Origin: Saliphagus infecundisoli
Lineage (GTDB): Archaea > Halobacteriota > Halobacteria > Halobacteriales > Natrialbaceae
NCBI RefSeq assembly: GCF_020177375.1
Contig: NZ_JAIWHV010000004.1
Coordinates: 62,001-126,000 of the forward strand
Length of the DNA: 64,000 nt
Reading direction: 5' to 3'
In this document: in pieces, positions 4,711-41,468 of the stretch
Layout of the letters: each line of letters starts with the position of its first letter
Position numbering within the stretch: the first letter of the stretch is position 1
The notes under the pieces: generated by a model
What the model was told of the DNA's origin: nothing
The model's input: only the letters and a program-made list of their open reading frames with translations
The model's database searches: none
Program-made: the position numbers and the translations under genes

Positions 4711-5040
4711 TCAGGAATGCTCGTAGATGGCTAGCTCGTCCCCATCGATTTCGAGCTGATAGGACTCGACGGCGAACGAAATAGTGAGGTTCTCGGTGCG
4801 GGCCATGATGTTCTCGAGCGCTGTTGGATCGATATAATCGTATAACGGGCCGCCAAGTTCGGTCGGCAACTCGGACGGGGACGTGTGCTCTACCTCGGCA
4901 AGCGAGTCAACAATCCCTGGGATAGGGTCGGATCGGGACAAGTGGGCTCGGTAAAGCTGTGTCCTGGTGTCCTTCACAGTCTGCCTATAGTTCCCAAACC
5001 TCAAGTATCTTTCACTCCATAAGTTATAAAATATTACCAA
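4711..5040 (-). CDS. HalOD1 output-domain protein
   Basis: 109 residues matching the HalOD1 output domain: GIVDSLAEVEHTSPSELP, then PLYDYIDPTALENIM (about residues 65-80), then a terminal strand pair ending VESYQLEIDGDELAIYEHS. In haloarchaea this domain occurs alone or as the output of response regulators; its mechanism is not known. The first 30 or so residues are less typical, so the true start could be further in. It is divergent from the DUF7344 gene at 5154, and the shared 110-base gap is AT-rich and should hold both promoters. Confidence 0.65.
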   Translation of the reverse strand: MVIFYNLWSERYLRFGNYRQTVKDTRTQLYRAHLSRSDPIPGIVDSLAEVEHTSPSELPTELGGPLYDYIDPTALENIMARTENLTISFAVESYQLEIDGDELAIYEHS

Positions 5041-29318: not shown

Positions 29319-30267
29319 CCGGCGGCGCGGCGTCGATCGCCTCGAGCTGTTCCCGGTAGCGGTTCCTGACGGTGACGACGGTCGTGTTCGCGGTTTTGGC
29401 GACCGCACGCTGAGGGATCGTCTCCTCACAGAGCAGCCCCGCGGCGTAGATCGCCGCGGCGGCGTACCCCGTCGGCGACTTCCCCGAGTGGAGTCCGAGC
29501 GCGGTCGTCTCCTCGATGATCTCGACGGCTCGGGTTTCGACCTCGGTGCTCACCTCGAGTTCCGAGCAAAAGCGCGGGACGAACTGGCGGGGGTTCGTCG
29601 GCTCCAGATTGATGTCGAGTTCGTCGGCGATATAGCGGTAGGTGCGTCCGATCTCGCGCTGGTCGACCCGCGCGACGGCCGTTACCTCCTCCAAGCTTCG
29701 GGGAATGCCCTCCTCGCGGCAGGCCGTATACAGCGCCGAGGTCGCGACGCCCTCGATCGACCGGCCGCGGATGAGATCCCGGTCTAAGGCCCGCCGGTAG
29801 ATGACGCTCGCGGTCTCCTTGACCGAGCGCGGGAGGCCCAAGGCGCTGCTCATCCGGTCGATCTCGCTCAGGGCGTACTTCAGGTTTCGCTCGCCGGCGT
29901 TCTTCGTCCGGATGCGCTCCTGCCAGACCCGCAGGCGGTGGAGCTGTCCCTGCTTTTCGGCGGACATCGAGTGACCGTTGGCGTCGCGATTGCGCCAGTC
30001 GATCGTGGTGGTCAGCCCCCGGTCGTGCATCGCCTCGGTCAGGGGCGCGCCGACGCGGGCGCGATCCTCGTGTTCTCTGGCGGTGAACGCCCGCCACTCG
30101 GGGCCGTAGTCGATCGGTTCGTCGTCGACGACGAGCCCGCAGTCCGCACAGACCCGTTCGCCGCGGTCCGGATCGCTGACGACGGTGTCGGTCTCACAGT
30201 CCGGACACCGGCCGGTAGTCGTCTCGGCCCGTTCGTCGTCGACGTGGGTGGTGATGGACCGCGTCAT
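29311..30267 (-). CDS. tfb: Transcription initiation factor IIB
   Basis: 318 residues. The N-terminal zinc ribbon has Cys 21, 24, 40 and 43 (CPDC ... CADC). The B-finger/linker WRAFTAREHEDRARVGAPLT follows, then two cyclin repeats (SEIDRMSSALGLPRSVKETASVIY and the second ending VAKTANTTVVTVRNRY, the helix-turn-helix that contacts BRE). It bridges TBP and RNA polymerase at promoters. Haloarchaea carry several TFB paralogues, and sequence alone does not say which this is. Confidence 0.95.
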   Translation of the reverse strand: MTRSITTHVDDERAETTTGRCPDCETDTVVSDPDRGERVCADCGLVVDDEPIDYGPEWRAFTAREHEDRARVGAPLTEAMHDRGLTTTIDWRNRDANGHSMSAEKQGQLHRLRVWQERIRTKNAGERNLKYALSEIDRMSSALGLPRSVKETASVIYRRALDRDLIRGRSIEGVATSALYTACREEGIPRSLEEVTAVARVDQREIGRTYRYIADELDINLEPTNPRQFVPRFCSELEVSTEVETRAVEIIEETTALGLHSGKSPTGYAAAAIYAAGLLCEETIPQRAVAKTANTTVVTVRNRYREQLEAIDAAPPAT

Positions 30268-30641: not shown

Positions 30642-31238
30642 ATGTCCTCGGTCGACACCTCGATTCCCGACGAGATCCGGTCGGTGACCGAGGAGGGAGA
30701 CACCGACCGACTCTCCAAGGACGTGATCTTCGAACTGCTGAAGAACCGACGGCGGCGGCAGGTACTCGCCTATCTCCTCGAGAACGAGGCGACGGTCACG
30801 CTCGGCGAGCTCGCCGAACGGATCGCCGCCTGGGAGAACGACACCGAGGTCGCCGCCCTGAGCTCCGACCAGCGAAAGCGGGTCTACGTCGCGCTCTACC
30901 AGACCCACCTCCCGAAGATGGACGACGCGGGGATCGTCGATTACGACCAGGACCGCGGGCTGATCACCCTCGCCGACAACGCCGACCTCCTTGTGATGTA
31001 CCTCGACACCGAGAACCACTACCGGGACCGGTGGGACCGGTGGTACGCCTCGCTTTCGGTCGTCGGCGCCGTCCTCGTCGCGGGGGTCGTCGTCGGCGTT
31101 GGGCCGCTCGCGCTCGCCCCGGTCGCGGCCGTCTCCGGGCTGGTCGTCGCCGCGTTCCTGTTCGTCTCGGCGGCCCACTGCGTGGTCAACCGGCGTCGGC
31201 GCCGGACCGTAGACGACAAGCTCTCTCGAGTCGAGTGA
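30642..31238 (+). CDS. DUF7344 protein with C-terminal membrane helices
   Basis: 198 residues. The winged-helix region has ELLKNRRRRQVLAYLLENEATVTLGELAERIAAWEN and VALYQTHLPKMDDAGIVDYD, the DUF7344 signature. Two membrane helices follow (about 142-162 and 164-182). It is a likely membrane-tethered DNA-binding regulator. The ATG at 30642 is preceded by GGGGGGAACC; an upstream in-frame ATG at 30579 is possible. Divergent from the TFB gene. Confidence 0.75.
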   Translation: MSSVDTSIPDEIRSVTEEGDTDRLSKDVIFELLKNRRRRQVLAYLLENEATVTLGELAERIAAWENDTEVAALSSDQRKRVYVALYQTHLPKMDDAGIVDYDQDRGLITLADNADLLVMYLDTENHYRDRWDRWYASLSVVGAVLVAGVVVGVGPLALAPVAAVSGLVVAAFLFVSAAHCVVNRRRRRTVDDKLSRVE

Positions 31239-31620
31239 GCCGCGGGAAGGACTTTTATCGATCGGCTCCGTAGCTATCACTGGCTCCCGACGCCCGTACC
31301 TCGTCCGGAACGGTTCGCGTGCCAGCAACCCGTTCCTGGCCGGGAGCCATACCAACCCGCGAGCGACGGCGCCGTCCTCCGCGGTACGGTTCACCGCGGT
31401 AATCGACTCTTACCGACACGGGTCCGATCTCGTCCGGTGCGTGCCAGCGCGTCCGACCGATGGGAAGCGACGGTTATACTTATGGGTCCGTTGGCGCCGG
31501 GAGGATGCGAAAACGGTCGCATAAACCCCGATAAAGGGTCGTTGACCCGGATTCAGTGTCACGAAACCCTGATAGTCCACCCGCCGACCTCGGCCGGATC
31601 GGGAGTGAGCGCCCGCGGAA
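31239..31620. other. Intergenic with a GGGTC-GTT-GACCC hairpin
   Basis: No gene. A hairpin GGGTC/GACCC with loop GTT (31536-31548) lies about 70 bases behind the dehydrogenase gene. A covarying counterpart lies behind the second beta-helix gene (34915-34927). A TTATACTTAT stretch at about 31473 could be a TATA box without an evident gene. Confidence 0.4.
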
Positions 31621-32893: not shown

Positions 32894-34756
32894 CTACTGG
32901 TCTCTGGCGTTGTACTCGATCGAGACGTCGGCGTCGCCGCGGACGCGACAGGCAGTGAGGTCGCCCTCGAACCAGTAGGCGTCGAGCCAGTTGGCGACGA
33001 TGCCGCGTACGGCCCCGCCGTCGACGCTGTCCTCGTCGTCGATGGAGGCGCCGCGGTGGTCGGAGCGCTCGACCGTCCCGTCCACCCGGAAGGAGTACGC
33101 GGAGGGGGCGTCGGCGTCGGTGCCGTCGACGACGAGCGCGTGGGGAAGCAGGTCCCCGCCGGGGTCCTCGACTTCCTCGCCGTCGACCGAGACCGTGGCC
33201 TCGCCGTCGACGAAGGTGACGTCGGTGAGCGCGCCCGAGAACCGGAAACCGAGGCTCTCGTCGGTCACCGAGCCCTGAATGGTCGACCCCGAGACGATGG
33301 TCACGTCCTCCTTCTCCCCTTCCTGCTCGACCGTGCCGTCGATCGTCGCCTCGAAGCTCGCGGGCGTCCCCTGGCCCTCGATCTCCAGAGTCTTCGGGAG
33401 CTCCGTGCCGAAGTCGGCGGGATCGACCTCCTCGCCGTCGATCGAGACGGTCGCCGGCCCGTCGGCCGTGAGCTGTTCGATCTCTCCTTCGAAACGGAAG
33501 GCGTCGCGCCAGTTCGCGACGACGCCCTGGACGGCCCCGTCCTCGACGGCGTCCTCGTCGTCGATCGTCGCTCCCTCGTAGTTGGCCGCCTCGACCTCGC
33601 CGCTGGCGGCGAACTCGTATCGGGTGACACTCTCCTCGCTTCCCTCGAAAAGGATCACGTGCTCGAGGCCGCCGGCTGCGTCCGCCGATTCCCCGTTCTC
33701 GGCCTCCGTGGACTCGGCGTCCTCGCTCCCGGAGCCCTCGCTCCCGGAGCTGTCGGCCGGGTCGCCCTCGTCGCTCTCGACCGTCGAGGCGACCTCCGTG
33801 GTCTCCGTCGTGGCGCCCGCAAAGACCTCCTCGGGGCTGGTCGGCGTCCCCTCGGGGACGGAGGGATCGGGGTCGGTTCCGTTGTTCGACTCCTGAAGGT
33901 TTACCGTCCCGCGTTCCTGGAGGCCGCCGCTGTAGTTCGTCCCCTCCATGGAGACGGACGTCGTCTTGCCGTCACGACCGATGTCGAGCGCGTAGGGGTA
34001 GGGGCCGGCAACGAAGTCACAGTCGACGACCTCGACCGCGTCGCCGTGGGCCTCGGTCGGCCAGACCCACAGCGGCCGGCCGTTCCGGCCGGACTCGGTG
34101 TTGACGGCGGTGCAGTTCTCGACGGTGCCCCGGGCGATCCGGAAGCCCGAGACCCACGAGTCCTTCGCGTAGGAGTCCTTGTAGTGGATCGTCCCACGTC
34201 CGCCGTTGGAGTTCGAGCCCGGCGCCGAGCCGTAGAAGGCGTTGTCGTGGGCGCCCTCGACGTAGACGTTCTCGACGTGGAGGTGGCCGTTGTGTGCGGG
34301 ATCGACCCAGAGACCGAACTTGGGGTGGCGCTGACCGCCGACGCTCCCGTCGACGCCGTCGCCCAGATAGACGTTCTCGATCCGGGAGGTGCCGTTGCCG
34401 GTGTCGGCGACGCCCAGCGCGCGGTCCCGGTGGGAGAACTCGCCCTTCCAGGCGACGTTGCGGATCGTCCAGTCACTGCTCGTCGCCGCGATCGTCGCCG
34501 CCGATCCGGGCGCGGTCTGGTCGAAGAGGACGTTCTCGAACGTCTCGCCGTCCTCGAGCCGGATGACCCGACGCTCGCCCTGGTCCAAGGTGATCGTCTC
34601 GTAGTCGGCCGCGGCCGCCGTCGTCGCCAGCGCGCTCCCGGCGAGGCCGGCCGTCGCGGCGCCGGTGAGCTTCAGGTACGAGCGTCGTCCGAGGACGCCC
34701 TCGGGGGTGGTTCCATCGCTATCGCTCTCTTCCTCGTCCGCAGGTTCGCGTGCCAT
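32894..34756 (-). CDS. Tat-exported right-handed beta-helix protein with tandem C-terminal repeats
   Basis: 620 residues. A Tat signal (LGRRSYLKLTGAATAG, RR at 24-25) is followed by a beta-helix of about 260 residues: ETFENVLFDQTA, DWTIRNVAWKGEF, SRIENVYLGDGVDG, LHVENVYVEGAHDNAFYGS. After an acidic Ser/Glu linker (about 313-370) come three repeats of about 80 residues. Each has an FEGxxxxxxxxG(D/P)A(T/D)VSIDGEEVDP-like core, and repeats 1 and 3 share GAxIDDEDxVxxGAVxGxVANWxDA. The fold is that of pectate-lyase-like proteins that bind or cut polysaccharide; no catalytic set is evident. It is a close paralogue of 34970-35893 and shares its promoter element. Confidence 0.85.
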   Translation of the reverse strand: MAREPADEEESDSDGTTPEGVLGRRSYLKLTGAATAGLAGSALATTAAAADYETITLDQGERRVIRLEDGETFENVLFDQTAPGSAATIAATSSDWTIRNVAWKGEFSHRDRALGVADTGNGTSRIENVYLGDGVDGSVGGQRHPKFGLWVDPAHNGHLHVENVYVEGAHDNAFYGSAPGSNSNGGRGTIHYKDSYAKDSWVSGFRIARGTVENCTAVNTESGRNGRPLWVWPTEAHGDAVEVVDCDFVAGPYPYALDIGRDGKTTSVSMEGTNYSGGLQERGTVNLQESNNGTDPDPSVPEGTPTSPEEVFAGATTETTEVASTVESDEGDPADSSGSEGSGSEDAESTEAENGESADAAGGLEHVILFEGSEESVTRYEFAASGEVEAANYEGATIDDEDAVEDGAVQGVVANWRDAFRFEGEIEQLTADGPATVSIDGEEVDPADFGTELPKTLEIEGQGTPASFEATIDGTVEQEGEKEDVTIVSGSTIQGSVTDESLGFRFSGALTDVTFVDGEATVSVDGEEVEDPGGDLLPHALVVDGTDADAPSAYSFRVDGTVERSDHRGASIDDEDSVDGGAVRGIVANWLDAYWFEGDLTACRVRGDADVSIEYNARDQ

Positions 34757-34790
34757 TGCGTCCGGGTAACGCCACGTTACCCGCATAAAT
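34757..34790 (-). promoter_or_regulatory. Palindromic operator between TATA box and start (beta-helix 1)
   Basis: On the minus strand ATTTATG (34790-34784) is the TATA box. It is followed at once by a perfect palindrome at 34763-34783, arms CGGGTAAC and GTTACCCG with a five-base centre, and then the ATG at 34756. TATA-to-ATG distance is 27 bases, so the palindrome covers the transcription start of a leaderless message, where a bound repressor would block it. The same arrangement precedes the gene at 34970-35893. Confidence 0.65.
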
Positions 34791-34869
34791 CTTTCCTTAG
34801 TCCGACGATTAAAATTTATAGACAGTAACTAATATCTGATCGACTTCACACAGGATCTTATACGTTCCA

Positions 34870-34969
34870 TCACGAACGTTTATACGATCGAGCGGGCCGA
34901 TTTCGTTCCGAAAGCGGTCGTTGACCGGACTTCGAGCCGGAGCGCCGCGAGAAAAAGGGAATTACTGCT
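34870..34969. terminator. Hairpin behind beta-helix 2
   Basis: A hairpin CGGTC-GTT-GACCG (34915-34927) follows the stop of 34970-35893 by about 45 bases. It matches the GGGTC-GTT-GACCC hairpin behind the dehydrogenase gene, with the outer pair swapped from G-C to C-G, which keeps pairing. It may be a 3' processing or termination element; no U tract is present. Confidence 0.35.
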
Positions 34970-35893
34970 CTAGTCGTCGCCGACGGCCTCGCCGGGGCTG
35001 GTGGGGACGGCGTCGGGAACGACCGCCTCGGCGCCGGTCTCGACGCCGGAGCCGAGGTCGACGCTTCCCTCCCCGTTGATCCCGCCGTGGTAGCCCTCGT
35101 CGTAGGCGGTGTCGGTGACCGAGACCGACGAGGCGCTGCCGTTCGCGCCCGCGCGGATCGCGTAGTGGTTGTCGCCGGTCTCGAGCTGGCAGTTCTTGAC
35201 CTCGCAGGGACCCGGCGCCCAGACCCAGACACCGCGGCCGTCATACCCCTCGTCGTCGAGGCGGACGCTCGAGTTCGTCACCGTACTTCCCGCCGAGCCG
35301 ATCCGGTAGTGGGCGACCCGGCAGTTTGCCGCGAAACAGCGGTCGATGTGGACCGTCCCGCCGCCTTTCCCGCCGGGCGCGGAGGCGTAGATCGCGTTGT
35401 CCGGGAACCGCTGGACGTTGACCCCCTGGATGTCGAGCTTGCCGGAGTGATCGGGCGCGACCCAGATCGCGGTTTCGGCCGTGTCTCCGCCGGCGTTGGT
35501 GCTCCCGTCGCCCAGATAGACGTTCTCGAGCCGGGAGCTGCCGCCGCCGGTGTCGGCGATCCCGAAGACGGCGCCGGGCGCGCCGACATCGAGTTCGCCC
35601 TCGACCGCGACGTTGCGGATCGTCCAGTCGGTGCCCATCGCGCTTACCGTGACGCGTGCGCCCTCGGCGGTGCAGTCGATCACCCGGTTCTCGAAGGTCT
35701 CGCCGTCGCCGACCTTGATAGTCCGGTCCTCGCCGGGGTCGATGACGATCCGTTCGGCGTCCGCGCCGTCGGCGGCCGCGGCCGTCCCGACGGCGCCGGT
35801 GGTCGCCGCCGCGACCGCGGCCAGCGAACGCACGTACGAACGCCGCGTTAATCCGTCGTTTCGGCTCTCGGTAATCGTCTGCTTTCGTGGCAT
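34970..35893 (-). CDS. Tat-exported right-handed beta-helix protein
   Basis: 307 residues. A Tat signal (LTRRSYVRSLAAVAAATTGAV, RR 17-18) precedes a beta-helix that parallels the first 310 residues of 32894-34756: GETFENRVIDCTA, DWTIRNVAVEGEL, GIADTGGGSSRLENVYLGDG, PDNAIYASAPGGKGGGTVHIDRC. It ends in the same TSPGEAVGDD-type acidic tail but lacks the tandem repeats. Likely binds or modifies a surface polysaccharide. The start ATG at 35893 lies 26 bases from the TATA box through a copy of the shared palindrome. Confidence 0.85.
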   Translation of the reverse strand: MPRKQTITESRNDGLTRRSYVRSLAAVAAATTGAVGTAAAADGADAERIVIDPGEDRTIKVGDGETFENRVIDCTAEGARVTVSAMGTDWTIRNVAVEGELDVGAPGAVFGIADTGGGSSRLENVYLGDGSTNAGGDTAETAIWVAPDHSGKLDIQGVNVQRFPDNAIYASAPGGKGGGTVHIDRCFAANCRVAHYRIGSAGSTVTNSSVRLDDEGYDGRGVWVWAPGPCEVKNCQLETGDNHYAIRAGANGSASSVSVTDTAYDEGYHGGINGEGSVDLGSGVETGAEAVVPDAVPTSPGEAVGDD

Positions 35894-35898
35894 GCATC

Positions 35899-35926
35899 CG
35901 GGAAACACCGGGTTACCCGCATAAAT
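35899..35926 (-). promoter_or_regulatory. Palindromic operator between TATA box and start (beta-helix 2)
   Basis: ATTTATG (35926-35920 on the minus strand) is followed by a 21-base palindrome (35899-35919) with arms CGGGTAAC and GTTTCCCG, one mismatch from perfect and the same five-base spacing as the copy at 34763-34783. The flanks also match (AAGGAAA before the TATA box). Beyond these promoter bases the two upstream regions differ, so the element seems to be kept by selection. Confidence 0.65.
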
Positions 35927-36171
35927 TTTTCCTTATTACGGACTCTAAGTTTTACTGACTTTGGTTCGTTAGGAACTGTGGGCCGGGTATCGTTTCTCCG
36001 GACGCGACCGAAGGAAAGACCGACAGCGATCCCGGAGAGTCGTCCGACGAAGAACGGAACGAGCCGATTACCGGCGTCAATCGGCAATTATCGCGGGTCG
36101 AGAGCGGGCGCGACGGGCCAACGGCCGTGTGAACGGGGAGTACACGAGGCTCGGGTCACGACGAAGCGGGG

Positions 36172-37959
36172 TCAGCGATCCTCGACCGCGTACAGCGTGA
36201 CCTCCCCGTTCGAGAGGAGTTCGTTCGCCGCGGGGTCGGTCGCGAGCTCCGCCAGCCCCTCCTCGCTGTGGTGGAGTTCGTCGTAGACCTCGTGTTCGCG
36301 GACGCGGTCGTACTCCGTGACGACGAGGTAGTAGCGGTCGGGCGGGTAGGCCTCGCCGTAGGCGCCGGCCTCGAACGGGTCGGGTTCGACGGTGCCCGCG
36401 ATCGTCGCCCGGTAGCGCCGGTCCTGGTCGCGCTCGACGCCGTACAGCCCCTGGCCGTAGCGGGTGACGCCGAAGCCGTAGCCCGCGTAGGCGATCTCCT
36501 CGCTTCCGTGTTCGAACGCCGAGTCGTAGCCGCTCACCTGTGCGTCCGTGACGTGTTGGGTCGGCGTGTAGATGAACGGGCTCGCGAACAGCGTCGCCAG
36601 AGCGAGGACGAGACAGGCGCCCAGCGCGGCCGCGGCGACGGCGGTCGCGCCCGGCGTGGTGACCAGCCCGGAGAGCCAGCCGACGCCGCGTGCGAGCGCG
36701 ACGCCCGCCAGCACCGTGATCACGACGAAGATGAAGCCGACCTGGCGAAACGCCATCGTCGGCGTCCCCACGAAGTAGACCAGGAAGATCGCCCCCAGGG
36801 GGACGAGGGCGGCCCCGAAGTAGGTGACGAACGCCCGGCTCTCGCTATCGACCCGGGTCCGGCCGAGCCAGGTCAGGAGAACGAACAGACCCACGACGCC
36901 GCCGATCAGGGCGCTCACGAGGAACAGCTTGACGAACAGCTCGCCCAGGCTCCCGCCGACCTCCGAAAGCGAGGAGCCCCGCTGGCCGACCTCCGAGCCC
37001 GCCCCGACGCCGGCGGTCGCAAGCCCGTAGAACAGCCCCGAGAGGGCGTCCCGGAATCGCTCGTTCGAGAGCGACCAGGCGACGAACAGCCCGCCCAGTG
37101 CGAGCGTGTGGGCGTAGGCGGTTCTATGTCCCGCGATCGCGGGGTTTCCCGAGCGCCGGCGGGAGACGAACTGGACGAGACAGATCGCCGCGAGAACGAC
37201 GACGACGTTGACCATCTGCTGGGGGTGGACTAGGAGGAGCGCGACGCTCGAGGCCAGAAGCAACAGGCCGAACGGCGAGATCCCGAACGGGAGGGCCTCG
37301 AGGTCGGCTCGGCGGCGGCTGTAGGCGACGAACGCGAAGAAGACGGCGGGCACGAGAAAGAGGGCGTTCGAGTTGGTGTGGATGCCCATGTGGGTCGCGA
37401 CGTTGTTGATCGGGAGGACGAGCCAGGCGGCGATCGCGGCGAACCCGACCGCCGCCCCGTCGCCAGTCATGTCCCGGACGACAAGGGGAACGAAGACGAC
37501 GAACGGGACGAAGAGGGCGACGACGACGAGCAAGAGCGCGCGCTCTACGGGGATTCCGCCGGCGAGGTGCAGCGCCGAGGCGATGCCGTGAACGCCGGGA
37601 TAGAACAGCTCGTGGGGGTACATCGCGCCCTCGAGGAAGTCCCGCGTCCAGCCGAGGTGGGTGAGCGCGTCGCCCATCCCCGAAAAGTGGTAGTTCCTGA
37701 CGGCGGGAAGGGCGACGATCGCGGTCACCGAGAGCCCTCCCAGCCCGATCCCGGCGGCCTGGTCGAGCCCGCGCGCGAGGAGGGCGATGGCGACCGCGAC
37801 GGCCATCGCGACCCCCAGTCCAAGCCAGGTCGCCGTCGGCGTCCCGGCGTAGATCGAGGCCTCGTACCCCGTCGGCGGGGACCCCCTCGCGACGAGGAAC
37901 GCCGCCGCGACGGCGAAAAAGCCGATCCCCAGGACGCAGTTGACGACCGACCGTCTCAT
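36172..37959 (-). CDS. Polytopic membrane protein, GT-C glycosyltransferase-like
   Basis: 595 residues with about 12 membrane helices and a C-terminal soluble region (about 485-595). The first outside loop holds NYHFSGMGDALTHLGWTRDFLEGAMYPHELFYPGVHGIASAL; an acidic residue in this loop is where GT-C enzymes hold the catalytic Asp. The C-terminal part (PPDRYYLVVTEYDR, HHSEEGLAEL) is like that of archaeal membrane proteins in surface-glycan clusters. I cannot name the donor or acceptor. Context with beta-helix and sugar-dehydrogenase genes supports a role in surface-polysaccharide assembly. Confidence 0.65.
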   Translation of the reverse strand: MRRSVVNCVLGIGFFAVAAAFLVARGSPPTGYEASIYAGTPTATWLGLGVAMAVAVAIALLARGLDQAAGIGLGGLSVTAIVALPAVRNYHFSGMGDALTHLGWTRDFLEGAMYPHELFYPGVHGIASALHLAGGIPVERALLLVVVALFVPFVVFVPLVVRDMTGDGAAVGFAAIAAWLVLPINNVATHMGIHTNSNALFLVPAVFFAFVAYSRRRADLEALPFGISPFGLLLLASSVALLLVHPQQMVNVVVVLAAICLVQFVSRRRSGNPAIAGHRTAYAHTLALGGLFVAWSLSNERFRDALSGLFYGLATAGVGAGSEVGQRGSSLSEVGGSLGELFVKLFLVSALIGGVVGLFVLLTWLGRTRVDSESRAFVTYFGAALVPLGAIFLVYFVGTPTMAFRQVGFIFVVITVLAGVALARGVGWLSGLVTTPGATAVAAAALGACLVLALATLFASPFIYTPTQHVTDAQVSGYDSAFEHGSEEIAYAGYGFGVTRYGQGLYGVERDQDRRYRATIAGTVEPDPFEAGAYGEAYPPDRYYLVVTEYDRVREHEVYDELHHSEEGLAELATDPAANELLSNGEVTLYAVEDR

Positions 37960-39612: not shown

Positions 39613-40016
39613 GTCGCGTTCCGGGCTCTCGGAGCACTCGAGGACCCCGCCGCGGTGCTGGCACGCGAGGGCGAGACGTCGGTCCGGTCGGGAGCGTCGG
39701 CGGCTACGGCGCGGATCTTAGGGCCCGTCTAACGCGACCGGTACGGCCCCGTTCCCGAACTCGCCTGGTCCGTTTCTGCCGGGCGAACGCGACGCGGGAC
39801 TCGATCTCGATCGGCTTTCGTCACCGGATACGAGGGTCGGTGGCGGGTGACGGTCCCCCGGGTAGTGACGTTCTTCCTTAGGCGGATCGGGGGCTCCGGA
39901 AACATCGTATTACCGTTAGTCATTCGCGTATGTCTCCCCTCCCGAGTAGTGTTGATTTCCTCACGTTCCAGGGCCTGATTAGCAATATACGGCCGGACCG
40001 GTGTCGGAGTCGCGTT
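39613..40016. other. Intergenic, ending in a leaderless promoter
   Basis: No gene seen in these 400 bases. CAATATAC at about 39992 lies 25 bases ahead of the ATG at 40017 and fits a TATA box. A stretch CCGGGTAGTGACGTTCTTCCTTAG at 39856 resembles, loosely, the AAGGAAA/CGGGTAAC element of the two beta-helix promoters but is not palindromic. Confidence 0.4.
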
Positions 40017-41468
40017 ATGCGATCCACACCTGACCCTTCGGAGAGCAGCACCGACGACCCCGAGAGCGGATCCGACCGGTCTACGAGTACCGGACCGGAA
40101 CGAACCCCCGTCTCGCGGCGAACCTTCCTCGGACGTGCGGCCATCGGCGGCCTCGCGGCGGCCGGACTCCCCGCGGTGGTGTCGAGGACCGCGGCGGCGG
40201 TTCCTCGAGCCGACGAGTACGGAACGGTCATCGACATGGTCGAGGAGGGAGCCGACGATACGGGCACCGAGTCGATCACGCCCGTCCTCGAGTCGGTCCG
40301 GGGCGACGACACGCTGCTTTACTTCCCGCCCGGGCGCTACTACATGGACAGCCAGTTCCGGTATACCGGGTTCGAGAACGTCGGCGTCGTCGGCGAGGAC
40401 GCAACGCTCGTCCCGGCGACCTACTACGAGTTCGACGGTCCCCAGTACCGGCTCTTCCGGCTCGGCACCTCAAGTACCCCGGGCCGTCGGATCAGGTTCG
40501 AGGGGTTCGAGGTCGACCAGACCGCCCCCGAGACGGGGATCCGGGTCGTCGAGGCCTACGCCGTCGACCGCCTCGACATCGCCGACGTCCGCGTCCGTGG
40601 CGTCCACGACAGCGGCACGTTCGGGCCGTTCCTGGCGAACGTACTCGGTTCCGACGGGACCGGCCTCGTCGAGAACGTCCGCGCTCCCGACGGCGGCGCC
40701 TGGATCGACGAGACGCCACACACCGAACCCGGCGGGCTACGCGAGACCCGCGGACCGGACGGAATGCTCGCGAACCAGACGGAAGGAACTCTCCGATTCA
40801 AGGATTGCGTGATCGGCGGCTTCCCGAACCACGGGCTGTACGCGTCCACCAGCCCGGGTCGGATCGTCGTCGAGGGCGGCCACTACAGCAACAGCAACCC
40901 GGTCTCGCTCCGGATCGGCGGGACCGACAGCGAAGTCCGGTCCGTGACCGTCGAGGTCGACGAGACCCGTCCCCAGGACGTCTCCCAGCGGGGGATCCAG
41001 GTCGGCAACGGGAACGTCACGATCCGGGACGCGACGGTTCGTATCACCTCCCCGATGCCCAACAGCCACGCGATCGCGGTCCTCAACAGCTCTACGGGCA
41101 CGCGGATCGAGGGAACGCGCGTCGAGATCAGCGGCGACCGGCCCAACAGCGGGATCGTCATCTCGCCGGATGCCGGCCGGACGACGATCGCCGACACCGA
41201 GATCCTCCACGACGTTCCCCGAGGATATCCGCTGTGGGCTCGCGGCTCCGGGGGCGCCCCGCTCACCTGCTCGCACGTCCGGGTCACCGAGGAGACCGTC
41301 ATCGACGGCTCGAACGACGGCGTCTACTGCGTCGAGGACGGCGAATCGATCCCGTCCGATCCCCCGGAGTCGGATTCGAGCGAGGAGGAACCGACCGAAC
41401 CGTATTCGAGCGACGAGAGCGGGCAGCCCAGTGACACGGACGACGATGTCTGTCCGACCGACCTCTGA
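40017..41468 (+). CDS. Tat-exported beta-helix protein with acidic tail
   Basis: 483 residues. An Asp/Ser/Thr-rich N-terminus precedes the Tat motif SRRTFLGRAAIGGL (33-46). The opening GADDTGTESITPVLESVRGDDTLLYFPPGRYYMD is the pectate-lyase-superfamily N-terminal turn (compare the truncated gene at 3817). Helix coils follow (GLYASTSPGRIVVEGGHYSN, IQVGNGNVTIRDATVRITS, TRIEGTRVEISGDRPNSGI), ending in an acidic Glu/Ser tail. It is a third surface beta-helix protein of this locus but belongs to a different subgroup from the other two, and its promoter lacks the shared palindrome. Confidence 0.85.
   Translation: MRSTPDPSESSTDDPESGSDRSTSTGPERTPVSRRTFLGRAAIGGLAAAGLPAVVSRTAAAVPRADEYGTVIDMVEEGADDTGTESITPVLESVRGDDTLLYFPPGRYYMDSQFRYTGFENVGVVGEDATLVPATYYEFDGPQYRLFRLGTSSTPGRRIRFEGFEVDQTAPETGIRVVEAYAVDRLDIADVRVRGVHDSGTFGPFLANVLGSDGTGLVENVRAPDGGAWIDETPHTEPGGLRETRGPDGMLANQTEGTLRFKDCVIGGFPNHGLYASTSPGRIVVEGGHYSNSNPVSLRIGGTDSEVRSVTVEVDETRPQDVSQRGIQVGNGNVTIRDATVRITSPMPNSHAIAVLNSSTGTRIEGTRVEISGDRPNSGIVISPDAGRTTIADTEILHDVPRGYPLWARGSGGAPLTCSHVRVTEETVIDGSNDGVYCVEDGESIPSDPPESDSSEEEPTEPYSSDESGQPSDTDDDVCPTDL

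Follow-up and report, generated by a model that had tools for sequence, protein, structure and literature searches.

To our knowledge, experimentally defined haloarchaeal operators are still few. At the sptA promoter of Natrinema sp. J7-2, a semi-palindrome (SPS3, GAAN4TTC) located between the TATA box and the transcription start acts as a negative element, and transcription starts 4 nt before the ORF (PMC6085418). According to that paper, archaeal repression has two known mechanisms, of which polymerase exclusion downstream of TATA is one; it also cites, as a similar case, xacR of Haloferax volcanii, in which a negative semi-palindrome lies over the WW region (PMC6085418). In the CsmR regulon of H. 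volcanii, the semi-palindromic operator TATCA-N4-TGATA adjoins the TATA box, and deletion raises target-gene expression (PMC13286277). Ss-LrpB of Sulfolobus binds three sites cooperatively in its own control region (PMC2995911).

We analyzed a palindrome present at two promoters in a 64-kb stretch of the Saliphagus infecundisoli genome (hereafter, the window). The locus resembles sptA in family (Natrialbaceae), in encoding Tat-secreted proteins, and in having semi-palindromes between TATA and start and further upstream (PMC6085418). Unlike the palindrome here, the sptA element has an unrelated sequence and serves a single gene; neither family-wide conservation nor phased copies are described in the accessible part of the report. 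The xacR element is similarly placed; unlike the present one, it belongs to a sugar-catabolism regulon with a known regulator. The CsmR operator is likewise next to TATA; however, its targets are motility and cell shape (PMC13286277). Identity with the CsmR operator was ruled out, since the core here is GTA-N8-TTAC. The Ss-LrpB system has a comparable array of dyads, some of them >100 bp upstream of the start, but differs in its Lrp fold, its autoregulation, and its sequence (PMC2995911).

Results

Palindromes at two beta-helix promoters

The palindromes precede two minus-strand genes, BH1 and BH2. The features of the genes and their promoters are as follows (window positions).

32894-34756, minus strand: BH1, 620-aa Tat-signal protein, modelled beta-helix at about residues 53-290
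BH1 residues about 364-620 (model): repeat-containing C-terminal region
34970-35893, minus strand: BH2, 307-aa Tat-signal paralogue lacking the C-terminal region
34763-34783, minus strand: core-promoter palindrome of BH1, perfect; position kept in relatives
34765-34781, minus strand: 17-bp conserved core of the BH1 palindrome, GGTAACGTGGCGTTACC
35899-35919, minus strand: core-promoter palindrome of BH2, one mismatch
35901-35917, minus strand: 17-bp core of the BH2 palindrome, GGTAACCCGGTGTTTCC
34784-34789, minus strand: TATA box TTTATG of BH1, nearly invariant in relatives
35920-35925, minus strand: TATA box TTTATG of BH2, nearly invariant in relatives
34790-34796, minus strand: BRE-like GGAAAGA of BH1, kept in relatives
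35926-35932, minus strand: BRE-like GGAAAAA of BH2, kept in relatives

On the minus strand, the BH1 promoter reads TAAGGAAAGATTTATG-CGGGTAACGTGGCGTTACCCG-GACGCA-ATG (ATG at 34756) and the BH2 promoter TAAGGAAAAATTTATG-CGGGTAACCCGGTGTTTCCCG-GATGC-ATG (ATG at 35893). Both have the form AAGGAAA(G/A)ATTTATG-CGGGTAAC-N5-GTT(A/T)CCCG with the ATG 5-6 nt further on, and in both the palindrome is directly downstream of TTTATG. An earlier note on this DNA had described a TATA box followed by a 21-base palindrome with 8-5-8 spacing, the second copy having one mismatch; the coordinates, arms, and spacing are correct. It had also put the ATG 26-27 bases from TATA, and we measured gaps of 27 nt (BH1) and 26 nt (BH2). 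Because of this short distance, the transcripts are predicted to be near-leaderless. The palindrome would thus not span the transcription start, as the note had it, but lie between TATA and the predicted start, ending about at the start.

The BH1 and BH2 proteins showed 45% identity over the shared 300 residues. The coding sequences have indeed diverged, and the two genes are old paralogues, so the description of their promoters as "recently duplicated" does not apply.

A search of the window with up to three mismatches found the palindrome at the two promoters only (0.28 sites expected); two or more matches occurred in 5 of 100 shuffles. The note had proposed a genome scan, and in the 4.53-Mb genome the BH1 and BH2 sites were the only ones with at most one mismatch. 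Likewise, a genome-wide scan allowing up to three mismatches found the composite of BRE, TATA, and half-palindrome at BH1 and BH2 alone. A regulon within this genome could not be drawn from palindrome matches at up to three mismatches, which were mostly background (15 sites vs. 9 for the reversed pattern). Because BH1 and BH2 are paralogues, uniqueness in their own genome is weak evidence, and the element was therefore tested on other genomes.

Conservation of the element in Natrialbaceae

A protein search yielded 17 related loci in Natrialbaceae (named relatives include Natrinema, Natronorubrum, Natronosalvus, Halobiforma, and Natrarchaeobius), with the typical upstream form GAAAG-TTTATG-NN-GGTAGTNTCNNATTACCCG-N4-ATG. 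BH2 orthologues (MAQNPR...), which were found as neighbours rather than by motif, had TTTATG-NN-TGTAAG-N5-GTTACG. The 21-bp CGGGTAAC/GTTACCCG form described earlier holds at both window promoters but not across relatives, in which the conserved core is GTA-N8-TTAC (17 bp when written GGTA-N9-TACC). With at most one mismatch, the 21-bp form was present in only 8 of 125 family genomes, because the outer CG is not conserved.

The pattern TTTANNNNGGTA-N9-TACC had matches in 61 of the 125 family genomes, mostly with the start codon of a Tat-signal relative 4-9 nt further on; the reversed control pattern had few. Nearly all fetched matches with a long ORF within 14 nt preceded Tat-signal proteins starting with MARE, MARD, or similar, whereas a background-like minority had no ORF or another gene after them. 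We then scanned 391 genomes of the class with a relaxed left arm (AARNTTTAT-N4-GTA-N8-TTAC). Of the 101 family genomes, 78 carried the element, with 127 sites in total, and the 290 genomes from ten other families had none; the reversed pattern gave one match. When the arm spacing was made one base longer, no match was obtained in either the 125 or the 391 genomes.

As a check on selection bias, upstream regions were picked by protein homology, mainly from genomes lacking a strict motif match. Among 109 distinct promoters of this kind with a TATA box, TTAC was present at the exact offset in 87, GTA in 57, and both in 51; with the offset shifted by 1-3 bases, both arms were found in only 0-7. 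One dyad axis had 54% complementary pairs and every other axis 15-32%. The ATG-proximal half was kept better than the TATA-proximal half, which is often degenerate. The distance from element to TATA was constant across relatives, whereas that to the ATG varied. Covariation of the arms beyond column make-up was weak; it was positive at some pairs and is confounded by relatedness.

The note had allowed that an element restricted to these two promoters might reflect just shared ancestry. The element is instead kept across most of the family, and that case is answered because it precedes proteins of ~45% identity as well as a second, unrelated catalytic fold. Judged from these comparisons, the palindrome is almost certainly a selected regulatory element, and they support the view that selection maintains an operator-like dyad at one set place in the core promoter. 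The putative operator is family-specific: it is kept in most Natrialbaceae and absent from the sampled relatives.

Distal copies and an upstream AT element in relatives

Further copies of the dyad are present upstream in relatives. These, a conserved AT element upstream of the BRE, and a candidate regulator encoded next door (below) go beyond the earlier note, which had missed all three. The distal pattern was GGTAATA-N3-TATTACC, with a threshold of at least 11 of 14 positions and dinucleotide-block shuffles as null. We observed 138 distal copies vs. 1.25 expected. At least one copy was present in 86 of 114 BH1-class upstream regions, and two in 34. The nearest copy mostly starts at -164 to -169, i.e., 142-145 bp from the proximal dyad, and farther copies cluster about -219/-220, -230, and -243. 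The second copy is 52, 62, or 74 bp further up, more rarely 32, 41, or 95 bp; these pair spacings are close to whole helical turns and occur in several genera (codes g9, g10, g13, g14, g16, g17, and g24). We give no p value for this phasing, because relatedness among the genomes inflates formal tests. A weak third site in two genomes was out of phase (spacings of 38 and 112 bp).

No distal copy was found upstream of BH1 in the window's own genome, and the best candidate upstream of BH2 reached 10 of 14 positions. The AT element of relatives, TGTAAATTTTA, is located ~20-30 bp upstream of TATA, beyond the BRE; its counterparts in the window were placed by eye.

36056-36072, minus strand: possible degenerate distal operator of BH2, GGTAATCGGCTCGTTCC, at -179; 10/14, below the 11/14 threshold
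34810-34819, minus strand: AT element of BH1, ATAAATTTTA, counterpart of the relatives' element
35945-35959, minus strand: AT element of BH2, GTCAGTAAAACTTAG, counterpart of the relatives' element

Proteins encoded downstream of the element

BH1 was modelled as an all-beta protein that weakly matched PL3 pectate lyase, the AlgE4 epimerase, and tailspikes (best E 1.1e-3); HMM/Pfam and PDB sequence searches assigned BH1 to no family. We infer that BH1 is polysaccharide-active. The element precedes both beta-helix proteins and a non-homologous polysaccharide-lyase family: sites unlinked to the cluster led to further Tat proteins, several of which have a polysaccharide-lyase domain instead of the beta-helix. 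The protein at locus L227 matched PF14099 at 40.8 bits, above the gathering cut-off of 29.9. Those at L229 and L233 had PL14-like or PF14099 matches under the cut-off, and that at L228 had no PF14099 match.

BH1 and several lyase-type proteins have a common leader type, and the longer proteins have C-terminal repeats in common (BH1 residues 364-524 vs. L228 residues 434-593, 43% identity, E 7e-35). Thus, the same promoter and leader appear with different catalytic folds, through either domain exchange or convergence. The repeat-containing C-terminal region was seen in beta-helix and lyase proteins alike (L228, L229, L230, and the window's 32894-34756). This sharing suggests a common surface or glycan-binding module.

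A DUF7344 protein as candidate regulator

The conserved neighbours of BH1 and BH2 are as follows.

29323-30267, minus strand: TFB (TFIIB-like factor), conserved neighbour of the DUF7344 gene
30642-31238, plus strand: DUF7344 gene, candidate regulator; predicted winged helix (residues 26-110) and two membrane helices
31621-32745, minus strand: GFO/IDH/MocA-type oxidoreductase
36172-37959, minus strand: DUF6541-like membrane protein

The DUF7344 protein matched PF24035 at 117.8 bits (gathering score 27.8). Its model has a winged helix of three helices and a beta wing, followed by two long helices of hydrophobic sequence. Foldseek matches of the model were weak. The structural neighbours were ArsR/CzrA-like proteins (Z about 9, 12-22% identity) and Halobacterium salinarum RosR (Z 8.4); such values (Z 8-9.5) are common for the winged-helix fold and show no function. 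The profile matches included no ArsR-family Pfam model, and the resemblance to ArsR/CzrA is one of fold only. No mention of DUF7344 was found in the papers searched.

In relatives, the DNA-binding half of the protein is nearly invariant and the membrane part variable. In each of the ten genomes that had no BH1 match, a close DUF7344 match was missing as well, and the two genes were at most 12 kb apart in 99 of the 104 genomes having both on one contig. A beta-helix match without a close DUF7344 match was found in three genomes, two of which (G117 and G123) are incomplete; the third, G095, has the element. Every family genome had at least one DUF7344-type match, and most had several. No copy of the element was found upstream of the DUF7344 gene or the other neighbours in the window; autoregulation of DUF7344 was accordingly rejected as a candidate, no dyad being present upstream of its gene there.

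In our view, the dyad is very probably bound by a dimeric, sequence-specific regulator. Co-occurrence and linkage make the DUF7344 protein the leading candidate for that role, which we rate somewhat below an even chance; the linked TFB could be involved too.

Discussion

The palindrome is probably a conserved operator to which a dimeric regulator binds and which controls a set of secreted proteins. We propose that, from within the core promoter, it governs a family-specific regulon whose Tat-secreted members have polysaccharide-lyase-like or beta-helix folds and would be polysaccharide-active, and that a dimeric winged-helix regulator would bind the dyad. Distal dimers lined up along one face of the DNA in relatives might bind cooperatively and help to load the weaker core site. 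Occupation of the core site, between TATA and a near-leaderless start, would keep RNA polymerase off. Repression of this kind, argued by analogy, seems a slightly better than even bet; it is favoured because the sptA semi-palindrome at the same place is negative and polymerase exclusion is known downstream of TATA (PMC6085418). By a weaker inference, the regulator would be the membrane-anchored DUF7344 protein next door, whose anchor would couple the state of the cell envelope to the output of surface polysaccharide-modifying proteins. A similar architecture, an N-terminal HTH with a membrane anchor, has been described for ArnR/ArnR1 of Sulfolobus acidocaldarius, which act on surface-structure genes (cited in PMC13286277); the targets differ from those here, and the proteins are set side by side by architecture, with no relatedness implied.

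Two explanations would deny the palindrome a role as operator. If the promoters had simply been copied along with their genes, the palindrome could be conserved without function. The window's genome carries it at two paralogous promoters only, and leader and promoter seem to travel together despite differing catalytic domains. However, spacing and dyad persist in over three quarters of the family genomes scanned, although the proteins are ~45% identical and the flanking noncoding DNA has diverged, and distal copies at set positions exceed shuffles ~100-fold; such ancestry is therefore extremely unlikely. The element might instead be basal promoter sequence, in which TTAC would act as a strong WW/initiator motif around position -10 and the dyad would be incidental. 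The much better preservation of TTAC than of GTA fits this explanation, as does the coincidence of its TT with the WW position of haloarchaeal promoters (PMC6085418). On the other hand, two A/T bases suffice for a WW motif, and a single dyad axis stands out. Nearly perfect palindrome copies stand free ~143 bp upstream of the core promoter, and the element is absent from 290 genomes that share the basal machinery. We consider a purely basal role very improbable, if slightly less so than mere copying.

The other two explanations accept a bound operator and concern its effect or its ligand. The array could be bound by an activator, the distal sites being upstream activating sequences and TFB/TBP recruitment being helped by the proximal site or the AT element. 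The upstream, phased position of the distal sites agrees with this, as do the conserved TGTAAATTTTA ~20-30 bp upstream of TATA and the activation by Ss-LrpB from >100 bp upstream (PMC2995911). The best-kept site, however, lies between TATA and start, within the expected RNA polymerase footprint, where the sptA semi-palindrome is negative (PMC6085418), and we regard activation as rather doubtful. With the operator otherwise as proposed, it might be read by a factor other than the linked DUF7344 protein: a DUF7344 paralogue, an ArsR/MarR-like factor encoded at an unlinked site, or one acting together with the linked TFB. DUF7344-type proteins are multiple in most family genomes, G095 has the element without a close match, and similar palindromes are present elsewhere; against these stand the almost perfect co-occurrence of the DUF7344 orthologue with BH1, the tight linkage of the two genes, and the nearly invariant DNA-binding half of the orthologue. 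We judge such a factor to have an even chance.

A broader and more speculative reading, which we think rather unlikely, is that DUF7344 proteins, as membrane-anchored winged-helix factors, are one-component envelope sensors, the orthologue here running a family-wide set of secreted polysaccharide-modifying proteins via helically phased distal operators and a core-promoter operator. As part of that sensor reading, one promoter-plus-leader module would have been joined to unrelated catalytic folds.

The architecture of the putative operator is unusually well defined. From comparative data alone, its spacing is fixed to the single base, and its target class and its range, one family, are delimited. 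The same data provide a concrete candidate role for DUF7344, a domain of unknown function with matches in all family genomes searched. If true, the proposal would connect the cell envelope of Natrialbaceae with their secreted polysaccharide-active proteins in a way that is open to testing.

Other palindrome matches

Three window sites matched the distal palindrome at 12 of 14 positions. One, GGTAATCGACTCTTACC (31398-31414), is in the gap between the DUF7344 and MocA genes; ten block shuffles of the window gave no match at the level of this site. Another, GGAAACATCGTATTACC (39898-39914), precedes a further Tat-signal beta-helix gene (ORF 39930-41468) by ~119 bp, counted from the gene's likely start at 40017; it could mark a third target within the window or reflect chance. 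The remaining one, AGTTATAAAATATTACC, is at 5022-5038.

The palindrome GGTAAT-N5-ATTACC is not confined to BH1 promoters: in a count made by eye, roughly 30 of its 66 sites were upstream of BH1, and two genomes without the cluster still have such sites. A perfect GGTAAT palindrome was seen 500-630 bp upstream of an MscS-like membrane protein gene (L240, L241, L251, L253, L254, L258, and L262, around position 1501); at L240 and L241 it starts within the preceding gene's stop codon and is hairpin-like. The palindromes near the MscS-like gene are probably a different element. Several unlinked GGTAAT palindromes, which follow stop codons or lie at this 500-630 bp distance, were left out of the regulon.

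In G080, one motif match is followed by the gene for a GVVHDHPAS-type protein (L234:839), judged TraB-like by eye, and a relative is encoded near an unlinked palindrome in G008, a genome without the cluster (L236:102). In the window's own genome, a palindrome copy with two mismatches (L003:1501-1521; G000:C11:59167-59187) stops 1-2 nt short of the start codon of a 263-aa ORF, which sits between two DUF7344-type genes.
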